NCBI GenBank assembly: GCA_016783885.1
Contig: JADHVR010000010.1
Location: forward strand, 1-64,000
From: Bacteroidales bacterium
GTDB taxonomy: Bacteria; Bacteroidota; Bacteroidia; Bacteroidales; JAADJA01
DNA: 64,000 nt
Direction: 5' to 3'
Shown piece by piece: positions 19,009-57,276 of the stretch. The notes under the pieces were generated by a model. That model worked only from the letters and a program-made list of their open reading frames with translations, had not been told where the DNA came from and ran no database searches. Made by a program: the position numbers and the translations under genes. The stretch's first letter is position 1; every line of letters begins with the position of its first letter.

Positions 19009-19127
19009 ATTAAACCCGTAGAAAAGGGTTTGCAAAGCTTTAGTCCGCTATTTTTAAGGTAATCAGTAAATTGCCGATATGAATATTTTATCCCGATAGC
19101 TATCGGGATGCTTTCAACGGGTTTAAT
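19009..19127. repeat. ATTAAACCCGTAGAAAAG repeat, copy 1
   Basis: 119 bp, imperfectly palindromic: starts ATTAAACCCGTAGAAAAGGG and ends CTTTCAACGGGTTTAAT. It is related over its whole length to 49063-49168 and, in reverse orientation, to 56989-57095. It carries an extra perfect 20-bp palindrome at 19090-19109 and abuts the stop codon of the MFS gene. Confidence 0.75.
19090..19109. repeat. perfect palindrome ATCCCGATAGCTATCGGGAT
   Basis: A 20-bp perfect palindrome inside repeat copy 1; the core CCCGATAGCTATCGGG recurs at 58083-58100. Confidence 0.8.
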
Positions 19128-26084: not shown

Positions 26085-29000
26085 ATGAAATTATTTACAA
26101 AATTAGGATTTGCACTCTTGGTGATGCTTATTTCATCAAGTGTGTTATGGGCGCAATCATCCGCACGTGATATTGGTCCCAAGAAGCAAACTTATACGAT
26201 TGCTTCTGAAGCACTGTTCGACCTGCAATTCGAGTGGCCTGTTGGTGTGGGCGGCGGTGAAGCCGGTATAGAATGTGACGGTATCAATATCTATACCACG
26301 AAGTGGAACGGTGCAGATTTTTACAGGTACCAACTCGATGGAACCTATATTGAGTCATTCACCATCAGTGGCGCATCCAATGTGAGAGACCTCGCATTTA
26401 ACGGAACTTACTTTTATGGCGGCGCTGCTTCTACAACTGTGTTTGAGATGGACTTTTCCGCTCAATCCCTGGTAAGTTCATTTACAGCACCAACCGAATG
26501 CAGGGCTATTGGTTACAACGAGGATGATGATGTATTCTATGCCAATAACTGGGGAAGCGCCATTACCGTTTTTGACCCTGCCGGCACTTTTGTAAGTAGC
26601 TGGTCTGTCGGTCCAACCGGTGATAGTTATTATGGTTTTGCGTATGATAATTATAGTACTGGTGCTCCATATCTCTGGGGCTATGCACAAGTTGGTGCCA
26701 CTCTGAATGAGTTAATTCAGATGCAGCTTCCTGATGGAGCTGAAACCGGAGTATATTTTGATGTAGGAAGCGTTGTTGCAGTGGGAACCGGTATTGCCGG
26801 TGGTATGGCTATTGATGATAATTTGTTTACCGGTTACTGGACAATTTTAGGAACATCACAGAATGTAAATATCTGGGGTCTTGAACTGTGTCCATCGGGA
26901 GCACAACCCACAAATGATGTTGGTGTTATGGCTATTGTCGAGCCTTCTTCAGGGGTTAACCTTACTGCAAGTGAGCCGGTAATCGTAAAAATTAAAAACT
27001 ACGGTACGGCTGCGCAATCCAACTTCGATGTTTCATTTACATTAGATGCCGGAACTCCCGTTGTTGAAACTGTTACTGCAACTATTAACAGCGGTGATAC
27101 TTATGATCACACTTTTGCAACTACTGTCGATCTCTCGGCTTATGGCACTTACACTTTTGAAGCTTGTACCGATTTAACCGGAGACGAAAATCCGGGAAAC
27201 GACTGCAATACAAAAGTTGTTGAGAATTCAACAGCGGCATTGTGTGTTCCGGTGTACACTACAGGATGTACTTATGGCGATGGATTCACCGACTTTGCTC
27301 TTGAAGAGATTGAAAATTACGGCTCAGGATGCGCCGACCTGAATGGTACCGGCTGGAGCCAGTATCTCGGTCTTGGCCCTGCCAGCCTTGAAGCAGGTAA
27401 TACTTATGATGTTATTATGGCATCAGGTTATAATAACAACTTTACTTCCATCTGGATCGACTTTAACGACGATCTTGATCTCACACCGGATGAAATGGTA
27501 TTGAACAACTTTGAAATGGTAACAGCCGGTATTCTTTATACTGTTCCTATTGATATTCCTGCCGGTGTACCGGATGGCCAGCATATTATGAGGGCACGTA
27601 CAAACTGGAACGCAACGTGTGACGATCCATGCACCAGTTACTCTTATGGTGAAGCTGAAGACTATTATGTTGTTACAGGTGGTGGTGTCGTTCTGGATCC
27701 TCCAACTGATCTGACAGCAACTTTTGTTCCTGATGATGATATTTACTTAGACTGGGTTGCACCTGGCGGTGGACCTACTGGTTCTATCCTTTGCGTTGAC
27801 CGCGACGGAAGCGTCGACTTAGGTTTTACCGACGACTGGCCGGCTATCCAGGCTGCTCTCGATGCAAACGCATTGACTTACGATTACCACGAAGTTACCG
27901 ACCTTACACAGGATGGACCCGATCTGGCAACTATGCAACAATATGACCTCATTATCTGGTTCACCGGTGAATCATGGCAAAATAACCAGACTATGTCGAA
28001 TAATGATGAAGCTAACCTGGGTACTTTTATTGCAGGCGGTGGAAACCTGTTATTATCAGCACAAGATTATTTCTATGACAGGTACAGTTCTGCAGGTAGT
28101 TTCTCAGCAGGTCAGTTCCCGTACGATTATCTTGGTGTTGCTTCTACAACCCAGGATAACTGGAGTATAATGGCACCCGATGTAGCTGATATTTCTGGTG
28201 TAGCAGGTTCATTTGCCGATGGTATCACCTTTCAGGTACAGGATATTTATACAACCGATAAAGAAGGGCTTTACATCGACCAGATTGTTTCAATGGACCA
28301 GGATCTGTTTGAAGTAACTAACCCGACTCCGGCAGGTATTGCTGCTTGCCAGTATGATGGCGGTTCTTTCAGGACAGCCTTTACAACTATTTCTCTTGCA
28401 GCAGTAACTGACGCAGGAATACTGGCTACTGTTATGGGTAATGCAGTTAGCTGGTTATCCGGAGGCGACAGCGATGCTCTGCTCGGATATAATGTTTACC
28501 GCGATAATAATCTAATTAATCCTTCATTGGTTACAGCTACGGAGTATCTTGATGAAAACCTTGCCTCTGGCACTTATGAGTATTGCGTAACTGCCGTTTA
28601 CGACGAAGGTGAATCAGCTTGCTCTAATACTGCCTCTGCAACAGTTCCTGGCGGTGGTTATATATTCTGTGACGATTTTGAATCTTACAATGTAGGCGAT
28701 CAATTAGTTTGTGTGAATCCTGATGACTGGACAACATGGAGTGGCACACCTTGTAATAATGAAGACCCATACATCGTTGACGATGGTGGCAACGTAGTTG
28801 AAGTTACCGGAACCAACGACCTGGTTTATGTAATGGAAAACTACACTTCAGGTTTTTATACCATGACCTTTGATATGTTGGTACCAACCGGAGGTGACGG
28901 ATACTTTAATACATTACAGGAATTCGTAATTACTCCTACCTGGGGTATGCAGGTTTATTTCGGACATACCAATCTTGGAGAAGGTAATATTGATGCCGGT

Positions 29001-32000
29001 GGAGCGCTTGCACAAATGTTTACTTTCGATTATGACACATGGATGGCAATTAAAGTAACTGTTGACATTGATAATGACTGGGGTGAATTCTTCCTTGACG
29101 ATGTACTGATCCACGGCTGGGTATGGCATGAGGGTTGCTTCGGAACCGGTACACTCAACCAGCTTGGCGGTAATAACTTCTATGCATGGGATGGCGGAGT
29201 CAATGGAAATCCACTCTATCGCTTCGACAACTATTGCTTAGCTGAAGATGGGGGGACTACATACGCGCCACCTGAAAATCCTGTTGCAACAGTATTTGAT
29301 AATGTAAATGTTCATTTCGACTGGGATGCACCAAGCGGCGATAAGGGCATTAATCTGCCGGGTATAATTAGTCATCCGGTAAAAGATCAAATTAGTGATG
29401 TTGATCCTGATGCCAATAACACATCAATTCCTTCTGATGCTCTGTTCGATCTGCAGTTTGATTGGCCCGTTGGTGTTGGAGGTGGCGAAGCCGGTATAGA
29501 AACTGACGGAAGCAACATTTATACAGCCAAATGGAATGGCGCTGACTTCTATAAATACGATATGGATGGAACATACATTAGTTCATTCACCGTCAGTGGC
29601 GCATCCGCTGTGAGAGACCTCGCATATAACGGTACTTACTTTTATGGCAGCGCTGCTACTACAACTGTGTTTGAGATGGACTTTTCCGCTCAATCCCTGG
29701 TAAGCTCATTTACAGCACCAACCGAGTGCAGGGCTATTGCTTACAACGAGGATGATGATGCATTTTATGCAAACAACTGGGGTAGTGCTATTACAAAATT
29801 CAATATGGCAGGTACAAACCTGGGAAGTTTCGCGGTTGGACCGGTTGGAGATAGTTATTATGGCTTCGCTTACCAAGGTTCCAGTTATTGTGGAGATGGC
29901 CCGTTCCTCTGGGGTTATGCACAGGTAGGCGCTACCCTGAATGAATTAATACAAATGGAGTTACCATCAGGAACTGAAACAGGTGTGTATTTTGATGTTG
30001 GAAGTGTAGTTGCTGTTGGAACCGGAATAGCAGGTGGTTTGGCAATTGATAATCATTTGGTTACTGACTACTGGACTATTTTAGGAACATCACAGAATGT
30101 AAACATCTGGGGTCTTGAACTGTGTGGTTCGACAGGACCATTCCCGATAGGTTACAATATTTTCCGTGATGGTGTACTCATAGATTATATTACTGCACCA
30201 ACCACTGAATATGACGACCTCAATCTTGCTCCTGGCACTTATGAATATTGCGTATCTGCTGTTTACGACGGTGGTGAATCAGAGCAAGTTTGTGCGGCTC
30301 CTGTTACTATTGAAGAGGGTTATATATTCTGTGATGATTTTGAATCTTACAATGTTGGCGATCAATTAGTTTGTGTGAATCCGGATGACTGGACAACTTG
30401 GAGCGGCACGCCTTGTAATAATGAAGACCCATACATCGTTGACGATGGTGGCAACGTAGTTGAAATTACAGGAACCAACGACCTGGTTTATGTAATAGAA
30501 AACTACACTTCTGGTTTCTATACCATAACCTTTGATATGTTGGTACCAACCGGAGGTGACGGATATTTTAATACATTGCAGGAATTTGCCGGAACTAACA
30601 GCCAGTGGGGTATGCAGGTTTACTTTGGACATACCAATCTCGGAGAAGGTAATATTGATGCCGGTACAGCGCTTGCACAAGTGTTTACTTTCGATTATGA
30701 CACCTGGATGGCAATTAAAGTAACTGTTGACATTGATAATGACTGGGGTGAATTCTTCCTTGACGATGTACTTATCCACGGCTGGATATGGAGTACAGGT
30801 TGCTTCGGAACCGGTACACTCAACCAGCTTGGCGGTTCTAACTTCTATGCATGGGATGGTGGAGTCAATGGAAATCCACTCTATCACTTCGACAACTATT
30901 GCTTAGGTGGCCCACCTCCGTGTTTGCCACCACAAAATCCTGTTGCAACACTATTTGATTTAGTCAATGTTCACTTTACATGGGATCCTCCTGCCTCAGG
31001 AGATGTTCTCAGCTACAATGTTTTCAGGGATGGTACAAACATCGGTAATACAACAAATACTGAATATGATGACCTTGGACTTGCTCCGGGCACTTATGAA
31101 TATTGCGTATCTGCTGTTTACGACGATTGTGAATCAGAGCAAGTTTGTGCTGAACCTGTAACTATTCCTGGAGGACCTCCGCCACCAACTAACCTGGTAG
31201 CCGTAGAAGGCATCAATGGAATTGACCTTACATGGGAAGGTATTGGTGGAGCTGAATGGATACAGTGGGATGATGGTCAAAACGCAAGTGCTGTCGGACT
31301 GACTAATGGCGGAACATTCAGTGTAGCTTCTCACTGGGAGCCTGCTGACCTTACTAACTATGACGGATACACTCTGTCAAAAATCAGTTTCTTTCCAAAC
31401 GACGAGAATGCTTCATATATTCTTAAAGTATGGACAGGACCAAACGGCACAACTGAAGTATTAAGCCAGCCTCTTGCTACCTTTAACGTTGGCGAATGGA
31501 ATGAAGTTGAACTTGATAATCCTGTAACTATTAGTGCTTCTACCGACTTCTGGTTCGGCTATGAAACAACTCATCTTGCAGGTACGTGGCCTGCAGGTTG
31601 TGATGCAGGTCCTGCAATTCAGTACAAAGGCGATATGATCTTAACCGCTGGTACCTGGGAATCGTTATATGTTCTTACCGGTGGTGCGTTAGACTACAAC
31701 TGGAATCTTGCAGGCTATGTAGAATTGTCTGATGGAATTGTTGCTCCATTGATCGGACGTGAAGTAGTTCCTTCATTTTCTGGCGGTTCATTTGCTTCTG
31801 CCCCGGAAAGCAAAGTTACTACTAACCAATATTCTAAGTTCATCCCATCTTCAACTAAGGATTTGTCGTATAATGTTTACTTTAAACCTGAAGGTGGTTC
31901 ATATGATTCGATAGCCAATACAGTAAATACATATTATACTCATACAGAGTTTGTTATTGGGTGGAACTACTACTATGTTACATCACTGCTTAACGGAGTT

Positions 32001-32288
32001 GAGTCAATTCCTTCAAATGAGGATTCTGTTCTTATCACAAGCATTGAAGAAAATATTTTCTACAGCACGATGATCTATCCGAATCCTGCAAGCGATGTTG
32101 TTAATATCAAATCTGATTTTGAAATAAACAATGTCATGGTTTATAACTTTGCCGGTCAGATAGTGGCAAATGAGCAGGTTAACAGCAAATTCTACCAAAT
32201 CAATACTTCACAGTACAATGCGGGAATTTATTTCTTCCGGATTGAAACTGATGAAGGTACGATCTCTAAGAGAATTATTATCGAATAA
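26085..32288 (+). CDS. giant modular secreted protein with T9SS sorting domain
   Basis: 2067 residues. After a signal peptide (about 1-23, LWAQS) come: module A (about 40-270, beta-propeller-like WPVGVGGGEAGIECDG...); a CARDB-like domain (about 272-380); a GEVED-like domain (about 386-533); an amidotransferase-fold or ThuA-like segment (about 566-800, YDLIIWFTGESWQNN, LLLSAQDYFYD); an FnIII-like segment; module B1 (about 859-1055, DDFESYNVGDQLVC); a second module A (about 1114-1347); a short FnIII segment; module B2 (about 1413-1607); more FnIII-like parts; and a sorting domain (YPNPASDVVNIKSDFEI...GIYFFRIETDEG). Modules A and B are nearly identical repeats at DNA level. It probably acts on the cell surface or is released by T9SS, possibly in adhesion or macromolecule binding. 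No clear catalytic motif. Confidence 0.88.
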   Translation: MKLFTKLGFALLVMLISSSVLWAQSSARDIGPKKQTYTIASEALFDLQFEWPVGVGGGEAGIECDGINIYTTKWNGADFYRYQLDGTYIESFTISGASNVRDLAFNGTYFYGGAASTTVFEMDFSAQSLVSSFTAPTECRAIGYNEDDDVFYANNWGSAITVFDPAGTFVSSWSVGPTGDSYYGFAYDNYSTGAPYLWGYAQVGATLNELIQMQLPDGAETGVYFDVGSVVAVGTGIAGGMAIDDNLFTGYWTILGTSQNVNIWGLELCPSGAQPTNDVGVMAIVEPSSGVNLTASEPVIVKIKNYGTAAQSNFDVSFTLDAGTPVVETVTATINSGDTYDHTFATTVDLSAYGTYTFEACTDLTGDENPGNDCNTKVVENSTAALCVPVYTTGCTYGDGFTDFALEEIENYGSGCADLNGTGWSQYLGLGPASLEAGNTYDVIMASGYNNNFTSIWIDFNDDLDLTPDEMVLNNFEMVTAGILYTVPIDIPAGVPDGQHIMRARTNWNATCDDPCTSYSYGEAEDYYVVTGGGVVLDPPTDLTATFVPDDDIYLDWVAPGGGPTGSILCVDRDGSVDLGFTDDWPAIQAALDANALTYDYHEVTDLTQDGPDLATMQQYDLIIWFTGESWQNNQTMSNNDEANLGTFIAGGGNLLLSAQDYFYDRYSSAGSFSAGQFPYDYLGVASTTQDNWSIMAPDVADISGVAGSFADGITFQVQDIYTTDKEGLYIDQIVSMDQDLFEVTNPTPAGIAACQYDGGSFRTAFTTISLAAVTDAGILATVMGNAVSWLSGGDSDALLGYNVYRDNNLINPSLVTATEYLDENLASGTYEYCVTAVYDEGESACSNTASATVPGGGYIFCDDFESYNVGDQLVCVNPDDWTTWSGTPCNNEDPYIVDDGGNVVEVTGTNDLVYVMENYTSGFYTMTFDMLVPTGGDGYFNTLQEFVITPTWGMQVYFGHTNLGEGNIDAGGALAQMFTFDYDTWMAIKVTVDIDNDWGEFFLDDVLIHGWVWHEGCFGTGTLNQLGGNNFYAWDGGVNGNPLYRFDNYCLAEDGGTTYAPPENPVATVFDNVNVHFDWDAPSGDKGINLPGIISHPVKDQISDVDPDANNTSIPSDALFDLQFDWPVGVGGGEAGIETDGSNIYTAKWNGADFYKYDMDGTYISSFTVSGASAVRDLAYNGTYFYGSAATTTVFEMDFSAQSLVSSFTAPTECRAIAYNEDDDAFYANNWGSAITKFNMAGTNLGSFAVGPVGDSYYGFAYQGSSYCGDGPFLWGYAQVGATLNELIQMELPSGTETGVYFDVGSVVAVGTGIAGGLAIDNHLVTDYWTILGTSQNVNIWGLELCGSTGPFPIGYNIFRDGVLIDYITAPTTEYDDLNLAPGTYEYCVSAVYDGGESEQVCAAPVTIEEGYIFCDDFESYNVGDQLVCVNPDDWTTWSGTPCNNEDPYIVDDGGNVVEITGTNDLVYVIENYTSGFYTITFDMLVPTGGDGYFNTLQEFAGTNSQWGMQVYFGHTNLGEGNIDAGTALAQVFTFDYDTWMAIKVTVDIDNDWGEFFLDDVLIHGWIWSTGCFGTGTLNQLGGSNFYAWDGGVNGNPLYHFDNYCLGGPPPCLPPQNPVATLFDLVNVHFTWDPPASGDVLSYNVFRDGTNIGNTTNTEYDDLGLAPGTYEYCVSAVYDDCESEQVCAEPVTIPGGPPPPTNLVAVEGINGIDLTWEGIGGAEWIQWDDGQNASAVGLTNGGTFSVASHWEPADLTNYDGYTLSKISFFPNDENASYILKVWTGPNGTTEVLSQPLATFNVGEWNEVELDNPVTISASTDFWFGYETTHLAGTWPAGCDAGPAIQYKGDMILTAGTWESLYVLTGGALDYNWNLAGYVELSDGIVAPLIGREVVPSFSGGSFASAPESKVTTNQYSKFIPSSTKDLSYNVYFKPEGGSYDSIANTVNTYYTHTEFVIGWNYYYVTSLLNGVESIPSNEDSVLITSIEENIFYSTMIYPNPASDVVNIKSDFEINNVMVYNFAGQIVANEQVNSKFYQINTSQYNAGIYFFRIETDEGTISKRIIIE

Positions 32289-32310
32289 CGATTAATAATT
32301 TCTATACAAA

Positions 32311-32346
32311 AAAAAGGCTGTCTTTTTATAGACAGCCTTTTTTTTA
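32311..32346 (+). terminator. intrinsic terminator of the giant secreted protein gene
   Basis: AAAAAGGCTGTC and GACAGCCTTTTT pair over 12 bp. The same hairpin word ends the downstream protease gene at 35015-35050. Confidence 0.85.
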
Positions 32347-32481
32347 TACTTTTGGCAACTATTTACACGAAATAACGTAATTTCTGAAATGTAAAAATAT
32401 AGCTTTGCGAATTCATTATTAAATGGTAAAAGGCTGAGGCTAAAAATTTCAATAGTTTAAATAATATTAAAAATCAAAATT

Positions 32482-34995
32482 ATGAAGCGAATTTATCTTT
32501 CAATTTTTATTGCAGTGAGTTTCCTGGTAGTTTCCAGGGCAGATGTTGTTAATACCGAGGTTGCTTCACAAGTGGCAAAAAATCATTTTTGGAATTACTC
32601 AGGTACTGAGGTTTATGAAGATATTACCTTGCATTTGAGTTACACCGAAACCGTTAATGGGTTACCTGTTTATTATGTTTTTGATATAAATACTAATAGC
32701 GGTTTTGTGATTGTAGCTGCCGATGATGATGTTAATCCCATTTTAGGTTATTCATTCGAAAGAAACTATAAAGACGAAATGGACAACCTCCCTCCCAATT
32801 TCTCTGCATGGATGAAGAACTATACTGATCAGATAGTTTATGTCAGGGAAAATTTAATATCAGCCGATGAAACAATTGTAAATAAATGGGACGAACTGTT
32901 AACATTTAACTTTGAACCCGGCTATACTGACAACGTCGATCCTTTATTGACTACAAACTGGGATCAGAATTGTTATTATAATGCTTTATGTCCGCCTGAT
33001 AACGGAGGCCCATGCGGACATGTTTATGTTGGATGTGTTGCAACAGCCATGGGTCAGGTCATGAAATATCACAACTATCCTGAACAAGGCAGCGGTTCAC
33101 ATTCATATTATTGCCAGGGTTACGGAACCCAGTCGGCTAACTTCGGAGCTACTACTTATGACTGGACATCAATGCCTAATCAACTTTATTCAAATAATAC
33201 TGCCGTAGCAACATTATTATACCACTGCGGTGTTGGTGTTGATATGCAATACTCCGCGTCTGGTTCCGGCGCCTTTAGTTCCGATGCCCGTGATGCACTT
33301 GTAGATTATTTCACTTATTCATCCGATGCGCAATTATTGACCAAGAGCAGCTTTTCGGCAACAGCCTGGGAAAATAAGTTAAAAAACGATTTGAATGCAG
33401 GCAGACCTCTTTATTATGCCGGCTATGGAGGCAGTGTTGGACATGCATTTGTTTGCGACGGATACCAGGGCACCAATTATTTCCACTTTAACTGGGGATG
33501 GAGCGGCTGGTACAACGGGTATTTTTATGTTAACAATCTGAATCCGGGCGGATATACTTTTAATCAGAACCAGGAAGCCATTTTTTATGTTTACCCCGAA
33601 GGCTCTTCTACTCTTACACCACCTGATAATCTCCAGGCTGAAATCGTAAATAATAATGATGTTCAGTTAACCTGGGATGCTCCATCAGGCAAAGACCTGC
33701 TTGGCTATAATGTTTACAGGAATAACGAAAATATAAATTATACAACGGAAATCAATTATTTTGATGAGAATCTTGATCCGGGAACTTATGAATACTATGT
33801 TACCGCTGTTTATGACGAAGGTGAATCCATCCCGTCAGCTTCGGCTTCAGTACTGATAGGCGGAGGTACTAATACCATATTCTCCGATGACTTTGAAGCA
33901 TACAATGCAGCTGAGCAATTAGTTTGTCAGAATTCAACCGACTGGACAACATGGAGCAATAACCCATGTTCGACTGAAGACCCGTATATTAGCACCGACC
34001 AGGCATATATAGGTTCCAATTCCGTTATTATTCAAGGCACTAATGATTTGGTAAAACCCATTTCAGATTATACAACCGGCTTGTATAAAATAAGTTTCTA
34101 TATTTATGTTCCTAATGGATTTTTAGGATATTTTAATACATTACAGGATTTTGCCGGCTCAAACAGTTTATGGGGGATGCAAGTATTTTTTGATGATGGA
34201 GGAGTAGGAAGCATAGATGGCGGCGGACAAACGGCAGCTACTTTTACATTCCAGTATAATACCTGGTTGTATAATGAAGTTATTGTTGATCTTAACAACG
34301 ATTGGGCTGAGTATAAACTGGAAGGAAATACTATTCATGGCTGGGTATGGAGTACCGGCGCTTTCGGGCAAAATAACATGAACCAGTTGGGTGGTTCAAA
34401 TTTTTATGCATGGGCAGGAGATAAAGGCACACCGAAATTTTATGTGGATGATTATTTGTTGGAAGAACTCGGCGTTGGTCAATTAAATCCGCCAACCAAC
34501 CTGCAAGCTGAAATAATTAATAGTGATGTATATTTAACCTGGGATGAACCCCAGAATAAAGACCTAATCGGTTATAATGTTTATCATTCTCTGAATGGAG
34601 GTGGATTTAACCTTTTAGATTTATACACCGCGCCACTGCCATTTATACACGAAGATCCCGGTTCAGGATTACATCAGTATTTTGTTACTGCATTATATGA
34701 TGAAGGAGAATCTGAACCATCTAATACAGTTGAAGTTCTTATTACAGCTATTAATGAAAATACACTTGATGCAACTACAGTGTTTCCAAACCCGGCTATC
34801 GAACAGGTGAATATCAGTTCTGATTATGAGATCAAAACTATAAAGGTTTTTAACTATGTCGGACAGGTTGTGGCTGATGAGGAAGTTAACAGCAAGTTTT
34901 ATCAACTAAATACATCACAGTTCAACACCGGAATTTACTTTTTTCAGGTTGAAACTAATGAAGGAATAATTTCCAGACGAATTATTATAAAATAA
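32482..34995 (+). CDS. secreted C10-family (streptopain-like) cysteine protease with T9SS sorting domain
   Basis: 837 residues. A signal peptide (1-20) precedes an inhibitory propeptide of the SpeB/Spi type (VVNTEVASQVAKNHFWNYSG to LGYSFERN). The protease domain holds the nucleophile C185 in VGCVATAMGQVMKYH, H321 in GHAFVCDGY and the conserved FHFNWGWSGWYNG. Then come an FnIII segment (about 376-462), a B module (about 466-665, DDFEAYNAAEQLVC), a second FnIII segment and a type A sorting domain (FPNPAIEQVNISSDYEIKTI to the end). The B module and sorting domain closely match the upstream 2067-residue protein. All catalytic residues are present, so an active extracellular peptidase is expected; it may feed the POT transporter. 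Confidence 0.93.
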   Translation: MKRIYLSIFIAVSFLVVSRADVVNTEVASQVAKNHFWNYSGTEVYEDITLHLSYTETVNGLPVYYVFDINTNSGFVIVAADDDVNPILGYSFERNYKDEMDNLPPNFSAWMKNYTDQIVYVRENLISADETIVNKWDELLTFNFEPGYTDNVDPLLTTNWDQNCYYNALCPPDNGGPCGHVYVGCVATAMGQVMKYHNYPEQGSGSHSYYCQGYGTQSANFGATTYDWTSMPNQLYSNNTAVATLLYHCGVGVDMQYSASGSGAFSSDARDALVDYFTYSSDAQLLTKSSFSATAWENKLKNDLNAGRPLYYAGYGGSVGHAFVCDGYQGTNYFHFNWGWSGWYNGYFYVNNLNPGGYTFNQNQEAIFYVYPEGSSTLTPPDNLQAEIVNNNDVQLTWDAPSGKDLLGYNVYRNNENINYTTEINYFDENLDPGTYEYYVTAVYDEGESIPSASASVLIGGGTNTIFSDDFEAYNAAEQLVCQNSTDWTTWSNNPCSTEDPYISTDQAYIGSNSVIIQGTNDLVKPISDYTTGLYKISFYIYVPNGFLGYFNTLQDFAGSNSLWGMQVFFDDGGVGSIDGGGQTAATFTFQYNTWLYNEVIVDLNNDWAEYKLEGNTIHGWVWSTGAFGQNNMNQLGGSNFYAWAGDKGTPKFYVDDYLLEELGVGQLNPPTNLQAEIINSDVYLTWDEPQNKDLIGYNVYHSLNGGGFNLLDLYTAPLPFIHEDPGSGLHQYFVTALYDEGESEPSNTVEVLITAINENTLDATTVFPNPAIEQVNISSDYEIKTIKVFNYVGQVVADEEVNSKFYQLNTSQFNTGIYFFQVETNEGIISRRIIIK

Positions 34996-47981: not shown

Positions 47982-49124
47982 CTATAAGCATTTATACATT
48001 TTGCCGGGCAGGCTTTTTATAACTCCTTCAAATTCGAGATTTAAAAGTATTGAGGCTATTTTACTTGAGGAAAGTTTTGACTCAAGGACGATATAGTCAA
48101 TACTTGTTTCTTCATTCTCTTTCAGGATATTTACAATAAGTTCTTCTTCCGCAGATAATTCAACAAATAATTTCTGTTGTTTGGATGTTTCTTCGGTTAT
48201 TGATTCCCACAGCATTATATATTTAACATCCTTAGCCGATTGTATCAATGCTGCTTTGTTTGTTTTAATAAGGAAGTTGCATCCTTCTGAATAGTAGCTA
48301 TTGATTTTGCCGGGTACGGCAAATACATCCCTGTTATATGAATTGGCAATATTTGCTGTGATTAAAGCTCCCCCTTTCATAGCGGATTCAATAACAATAA
48401 GTGCATCAGCAATGCCTGCAATAATCCTGTTACGTTTCGGGAAGTTCTCCCTGTCAGGGTTGCTCTTATTAATAAAATCGGTTAACAATCCGCCATTTTC
48501 TATCATTTTTTCAGCCAGTTTCTTGTTTGCAGAAGGATAGATACGATCAAGTCCATGGCCTAAAATCCCAACGGTTTTCAAGTTATTTTTCAAAGCAGCC
48601 TTATGAGCATTTGTGTCAATGCCATAGGCTAATCCGCTAACCACCAAAATATTCAGATCGGATAAACCTTCAATAATTTTATTACAGGCTTCCTTTCCAT
48701 ACTCAGAAGCTCTCCTTGTACCGACTATACTAATTACTCTTGGCACATTCAAATCGGCATTCCCTTTATAATAAAGCATTACAGGGCTATCGATACAATG
48801 CTTCAGCCGTTGGGGGTAATCTTTATCGAGAAAAAATAATGGAGTTATGTTATATTTATTTATGAATTCAATCTCTTCTTCAGCTCTTTTAAGAACCTTT
48901 TGCGAAATAATTGAATTTACAGACGATTCGCCAATGCCCGGGATCTTTATCAGGTTTCTTTTTTTTTCCTTAAAAATGGCTTCAGCGCTGCCGCAATACG
49001 AGATCAGCTTTTTACCGTTGATGTCGCCAATTCCCGGTATTAATGTTATTCCTATATTATAAATTAAACCCGTAGAAAAGTGATTTGGATTTTTTTTCAA
49101 ACTATCATACTGATTATTATTCAT
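47982..49124 (-). CDS. dprA: DNA processing protein DprA
   Basis: 380 residues. After a helix-hairpin-helix-like segment (ITLIPGIGDINGKKLISYCG, IPGIGESSVNSI), the Rossmann-type core has the DprA motifs GTRRASEYG, SGLAYGIDTNAHKAAL, GHGLDRIYP, FPKRNRIIAG and GGALITA. A C-terminal winged helix follows (about 320-380). DprA loads RecA on incoming single-stranded DNA during transformation. The start is unusual: the first 20 residues (MNNNQYDSLKKNPNHFSTGL) lie in a dispersed repeat (49063-49168) that also covers the start codon. The family-like region begins only at IYNIGITLIPG. Confidence 0.92.
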   Translation of the reverse strand: MNNNQYDSLKKNPNHFSTGLIYNIGITLIPGIGDINGKKLISYCGSAEAIFKEKKRNLIKIPGIGESSVNSIISQKVLKRAEEEIEFINKYNITPLFFLDKDYPQRLKHCIDSPVMLYYKGNADLNVPRVISIVGTRRASEYGKEACNKIIEGLSDLNILVVSGLAYGIDTNAHKAALKNNLKTVGILGHGLDRIYPSANKKLAEKMIENGGLLTDFINKSNPDRENFPKRNRIIAGIADALIVIESAMKGGALITANIANSYNRDVFAVPGKINSYYSEGCNFLIKTNKAALIQSAKDVKYIMLWESITEETSKQQKLFVELSAEEELIVNILKENEETSIDYIVLESKLSSSKIASILLNLEFEGVIKSLPGKMYKCL

Positions 49125-49168
49125 CTAAATTATCTAAATTTTATAAATTCGATTTCAACTGGTTAAAC
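49063..49168. repeat. ATTAAACCCGTAGAAAAG repeat, copy 3, overlapping the dprA start
   Basis: 106 bp starting ATTAAACCCGTAGAAAAG and ending TTTCAACTGGTTAAAC. It aligns over its length with the reverse complement of copy 2 (shared words CGTAGAAAAG, TACTGATTAT and TCGATTTCAAC) and with copy 1. It contains the dprA ATG (49124) and its first 20 codons. Confidence 0.75.
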
Positions 49169-49226
49169 AATGTTGAAGATTTTGGAAGTCAAAAATAAGA
49201 TAAATTATTCATGAACCGAATTTAAA

Positions 49227-56912: not shown

Positions 56913-57276
56913 CGAATAACAGAGTTGATTAAAATTTGATGGCGAAATTAAGCATTTTCAGTTCATTATTATTTTGTTGTTAAAATTTATTAAACCCGTT
57001 GAAATCGAGATTACAAAATTATATAACATTTCGATGCTGATAATCAGTATAATATGTTGAAAGATATTTGCAAACCGCTTTTCTACGGATTTAACGAAAA
57101 TTAACATCGGTTGAAATTAAAAAATCAGAAAGTATTTTTTTGCATGGAATAAAATATTTTATAATTTTGCACTCCTTAAAACAAATCGTTCTTAAATTGA
57201 TTAAAATCAAAAATCGCCCGCCTGAATGAAAGAATTCATTCTTTCGGGCAGGTAAATCAAAAATTTAAAATAACTT
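56913..57276. other. intergenic region between the DUF2723 gene and tRNA-Gln
   Basis: About 365 bp. It contains repeat copy 2 (56989-57095) and, at 57213-57252, a hairpin with arms CCCGCCTGAATGAA and TTCATTCTTTCGGGCAGG just upstream of the tRNA. No protein gene is supported; the remainder is AT-rich. Confidence 0.6.
56989..57095. repeat. ATTAAACCCGTAGAAAAG repeat, copy 2 (inverted)
   Basis: 107 bp starting ATTAAACCCGTTGAAATCGA and ending CTTTTCTACGGATTTAAC. Its reverse complement aligns end to end with copy 3 at the dprA start. The centre contains the near-palindrome CTGATAATCAG. Confidence 0.75.

Follow-up and report, generated by a model that had tools for sequence, protein, structure and literature searches.

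Among the closest described systems, the Rickettsia palindromic elements (RPEs) are short, palindromic, MITE-like sequences that lie inside genes within an open reading frame (reviewed in PMC10969869), while insertion specific for TTAA has been described for piggyBac (PMC7351741), of which the IS1380 family is regarded as a distant prokaryotic relative (PMC10140906). In-frame insertion of MITEs is already known, above all from the RPEs; the case presented here belongs with these, being one of start-codon takeover and not of simple extension. Compared by mode of insertion, the RPEs resemble the repeat studied here in the in-frame placement of some copies within genes; they differ from it in that our repeat inserts at TTAA with target duplication, most of its copies are intergenic, and the copy in dprA is out of frame with the old start codon and supplies a new one. 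With piggyBac the repeat has TTAA specificity in common, piggyBac being, however, eukaryotic. Among the papers searched, none was found to describe bacterial TTAA MITEs of this kind, and no named element family was found to match the repeat.

The window analyzed is a stretch of 64,000 nucleotides, to whose positions all coordinates refer; its genome, that of a Bacteroidales bacterium, is denoted G000 and the sister species G013, both being draft assemblies. From sequence comparison we regard it as highly likely that a MITE has inserted at the start of dprA, that the native promoter has been kept and that translation of DprA now begins at a start codon within the element. The features at this locus are as follows.

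47982..49124 (-): dprA ORF (380 aa), in which codons 1-19 come from the element and the native protein begins at Leu20-Ile21-Tyr22
49064..49167 (-): MITE copy in dprA, 104 bp when the TTAA-derived sequence at either end is counted, located behind the gene's native start codon
49064..49067 (-): TTAA target duplication on the dprA side, codon 20 plus the first base of codon 21
49100-49098 (-): TTG within the element, the other standard in-frame start candidate
49122..49124 (-): new in-frame start ATG within the element
49141..49170 (-): remnant upstream ORF beginning at the old TTG, with 9 codons, (M)FNQLKSNL, ahead of its stop codon
49164..49167 (-): TTAA target duplication on the promoter side, now TTTA
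49168..49170 (-): original TTG start, now cut off from dprA, at the same position as the TTG/ATG start of 14 congeners
49190..49197 (-): promoter element of the TAnnTTTG type, TATTTTTG, retained; its distance to the old TTG is 27 nt, which agrees with congeners

The 380-aa ORF is DprA (PF02481, E=1e-77; TIGR00732, 230.6 bits, cut-off 191; both cut-offs passed) and includes the C-terminal winged helix. Codons 1-19 are assigned to the element because the standard in-frame starts (ATG/GTG/TTG) ahead of the DprA core, namely ATG 49124 and TTG 49100, lie only within it, and NPNHFSTGLIYNIG is an element-coded stretch of the predicted N-terminus. The sequence-only reading had correctly placed the only upstream ATG inside the repeat, and its proposal that the repeat provides the start codon and the first 20 codons holds for the start and codons 1-19, codon 20 being part of the shared TTAA. 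The upstream ORF ends at a TAA (49143-49141), the new ATG begins 16 nt past this stop, and the leader is 46 nt longer than before the insertion. These positions support the conclusion that the insertion cut the native start codon off from dprA and would supply a new one; the earlier suggestion that the original 5' end may have been replaced is borne out insofar as the element splits the native TTG from the gene, providing a new start and N-terminus. For the altered competence gene expression proposed in the same reading, all that the sequence offers is the longer leader, the 9-codon upstream ORF and continuing purifying selection on the protein.

Comparison with relatives gives the state of the gene prior to insertion. 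DprA was detected in 39 of 41 genomes, and in the 14 congeners with a readable 5' end dprA starts with TTG (ATG in G004; G010 has an additional ATG four codons further upstream), the start standing directly before LLYQIG or LIYQIG (L-L/I-Y/H). With one TTAA retained, the window reads AACA TTG TTA ATT TAT AAT ATA GGA, which translates as M L I Y N I G, in codon-for-codon agreement with the relatives, and the native part of dprA measures 1086 nt both here and in the congener G001; since reconstruction and native length match those of relatives, the insertion falls between the native start codon and the remaining gene, the element sitting exactly between the TTG and codon 2. The comparison with repeat-free relatives that had been proposed as a check finds them lacking the 19-residue extension, which is absent from all congeners except G013, and an ancient DprA extension is accordingly rejected. 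In G013 the same insertion is present and keeps the frame with its ATG, albeit with a length difference of about 15 nt, and that genome carries many other copies of the element; it is thus not a case of the same extension in a genome free of repeats elsewhere. An assembly artefact is unlikely, given that the dprA-side junction recurs in G013; the promoter-side junction is known from one assembly (G000), because the G013 contig ends within the element. As a separate observation, the TTG start of dprA is conserved across the genus together with a fixed short leader after TAnnTTTG (L065-L078).

The repeat has two further copies in the window.

56990..57094 (+): closest window copy, same subfamily; empty TTAA site in G013
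19010..19126 (-): third copy in the window, belonging to the other subfamily; G013 has an empty TTAA there

In a whole-genome search the dprA copy and that at 56990-57094 are 77% identical over 109 columns (E=3e-14), and the copy at 19010-19126 has the same two ends as the dprA copy. The ends read TTAA-ACCCGTTGAAAA and TTAA-ACCCGTAGAAAA, their asymmetry giving the orientation of each copy. Copies were counted by pattern searches for end sequences: across the whole G000 genome TTAAACCCGTWGAAA, with at most one mismatch, matches 47 times as opposed to twice for the reversed pattern used as control. G000 holds 19 paired copies of 102-134 bp, mostly 102-107 bp; the element is about 100-105 bp long, and the inverted repeat contained in these 19 copies is imperfect and measures about 28 bp; unpaired single ends are mostly chance matches, coding sequence or truncated copies, and no more widely spaced pairs were found in the loci read. 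Exact matches to the ends number 27 in G000 and 12 in G013, as against 0-1 in each of 39 other genomes, and a whole-collection scan with an extended end returned, besides chance matches, two further Bacteroidota MAGs with paired copies (L154, L159). Element copies of G013 match contigs of the MAG 'Bacteroidales bacterium SMBSF25'. The copy at 19010-19126 and that at L051 2030-2156 contain an extra internal hairpin of the CCCGA...TCGGG type, possibly a nested palindromic repeat.

For each copy the element and one TTAA were removed and the joined flanks searched for in G013 and other congeners. At five orthologous sites (C104a, C116, C130 and the two remaining copies in the window, near 57 kb and 19 kb) G013 has a single TTAA and no element where G000 has TTAA-element-TTAA. 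Because these empty sites carry one TTAA, the element inserts at TTAA with a 4-bp duplication. Two G013 copies conversely have matching empty sites in G000, one of which reads ATAA in place of TTAA, the other being found in further copies of a different repeat, which have TTAA at that spot; for the C16 copy and for that at C209 of G013 the search gave no orthologous junction. Copy positions therefore differ between the two genomes, and in three copies (C104a, C109, C144a) the target TTAA includes the stop codon of the gene before it. The repeat is short and bounded by inverted repeats, duplicates its target as judged against empty sites, occurs in multiple copies polymorphic between close genomes and, at about 100 bp, has no transposase gene of its own; it is a non-autonomous inverted-repeat element (MITE). 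The different multicopy repeat just mentioned is longer than 165 bp (TTAAATCCGGTTCTATTCTTGTTAACCATTTATAACCGG...); it occurs at L197, L199, L200 and L202 (G000 C91, C7, C27 and C18) and hosts one G013 MITE copy.

Other readings of the locus have to be weighed against this one. MITEs elsewhere can carry promoters, and the element lies within 60 nt of the new start codon, so it might be supposed, as the sequence-only reading had done, that dprA lost its promoter to the insertion and is now expressed from the element. TAnnTTTG is, however, an established Bacteroidota promoter element, and the native TATTTTTG has been kept, as have the distance between it and the old start (12 of 14 congeners have 27-28 nt, the upstream region of the other two being rearranged) and the divergent neighbour gene that most congeners retain; the element itself contains no TAnnTTTG. 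Motif, spacing and neighbour being as in relatives, promoter replacement is not supported and appears very unlikely. Slightly less probable again is that no element codon is translated, because DprA synthesis still starts at the old TTG and then shifts frame, or else starts past the element at a non-standard codon (ATT 49064 or an ATA further on): the TTG is intact and is the usual dprA start in the genus, but translation from it meets a stop 9 codons on, a regular ATG with an open frame stands further downstream, and G013 retains both frame and ATG despite its length difference.

Least probable of all, and likewise very unlikely, is that the repeat is a regulatory RNA element kept for its function and not mobile DNA. 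Most copies do form strong hairpins, often near gene starts (z of about -1.6 to -5.6 on the same strand for the G000 copies other than that in dprA); yet precise, TTAA-duplicating insertions differ between two close relatives, the hairpins follow from the inverted repeats, and the dprA copy, with z of +1.3, is the only one of the 19 lacking hairpin potential. No Rfam element matched above the gathering score.

Insertion of a MITE behind a retained promoter would thus have proceeded from a TTAA overlapping dprA codons 2-3 (TTG TTA ATT TAT), into which an element of about 100 bp was placed with duplication of the TTAA, promoter, leader and old TTG being left upstream. Transcription would most likely still depart from the native promoter, and DprA would be made from ATG 49124, since translation from the old TTG ends after 9 codons, with 19 element-coded residues replacing the native first residue. 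A one-base deletion in the dprA copy, common to G000 and G013 and absent from three copies of the subfamily, bears on how the frame arose: without it the frame into dprA holds a TGA with no standard start codon after it. Because this shared deletion opened the frame, rescue of the frame probably followed the insertion, unless the element that inserted was itself a variant, alternatives that the data do not separate; the placement of gaps in the alignment decides whether the element is read as having brought the ATG with it.

From codon 20 onward G000 and G013 differ by 33 synonymous and 6 non-synonymous changes (dS 0.158, dN 0.007), and because both carry the insertion, this pattern indicates that DprA has been under purifying selection since it took place; the 19 element codons, with 0 synonymous and 2 non-synonymous changes, are too few for a verdict on selection. 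The lost hairpin might hint at selection against structure in the dprA copy, which is only a suggestion because it is a single case and because an in-frame copy in an OstA gene retains its hairpin.

The latter is one of several copies within reading frames.

L013 1411-1516 and L105 1501-1606: in-frame copy (C118) in the OstA/LptA-like gene

In-frame N-terminal insertions of 34 codons were found for two other G000 copies and one G013 copy. That at C118 lies just past the probable TTG start of the OstA/LptA-like gene and is common to both genomes; that at C16 lies five codons into a TPR/histidine-kinase gene (L022 1488-3014), adding 34 residues ahead of the signal-peptide core (by protein comparison, the homologue in G007 has this core but lacks the insert); and that at C209 of G013 precedes a lipoprotein-like signal. 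A broader reading would see here a Bacteroidota family of TTAA-specific MITEs whose inverted repeats are coding-compatible (KPVE...FxGFN, 102 bp net or 34 codons) and which time and again gives proteins new or longer N-termini, DprA and the OstA/LptA-like protein among them. Such a family would amount to a non-rickettsial counterpart of the RPEs, in which insertion is followed by rescue of the frame and loss of the hairpin; this reading seems to us rather doubtful.

Regarding the mobilizing enzyme, no PF13701 transposase was found in G000, and no autonomous partner with the MITE's ends was seen in G000, G013, G041 or G042. G001 contains a degenerate IS1380-family element (PF13701; L140 315-1323) with ends TTAAACCCGGATTATGCA and TTAAACCCCGATTATGCA, whose transposase has no relatives in G000 or G013. 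Because this element has TTAA and an ACCC tip like the MITE, an IS1380-type transposase is the best candidate, and the chances that an IS1380-family enzyme mobilized the MITE in trans may be taken as roughly balanced; past TTAAACCC, the only part in common, the two inverted repeats differ. The ends to match in a candidate full-length IS1380 mobilizer are TTAAACCCGTWGAAAA. An IS1380-like element in G047 was rejected as partner, its ends being different.

The locus offers an example, resolved nearly to the base pair, of a mobile element taking over the start of a conserved recombination and competence gene without killing it; insertion at TTAA, frame rescue and hairpin loss can be traced because there are copies in the sister species, empty sites and congeners that keep the ancestral start. 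It also illustrates that start-codon annotation can hide transposon-derived N-termini. Elsewhere in the window, positions 26199-34712 hold long duplicated segments about 1.66 kb apart and up to 95% alike, apparently a repetitive coding region.
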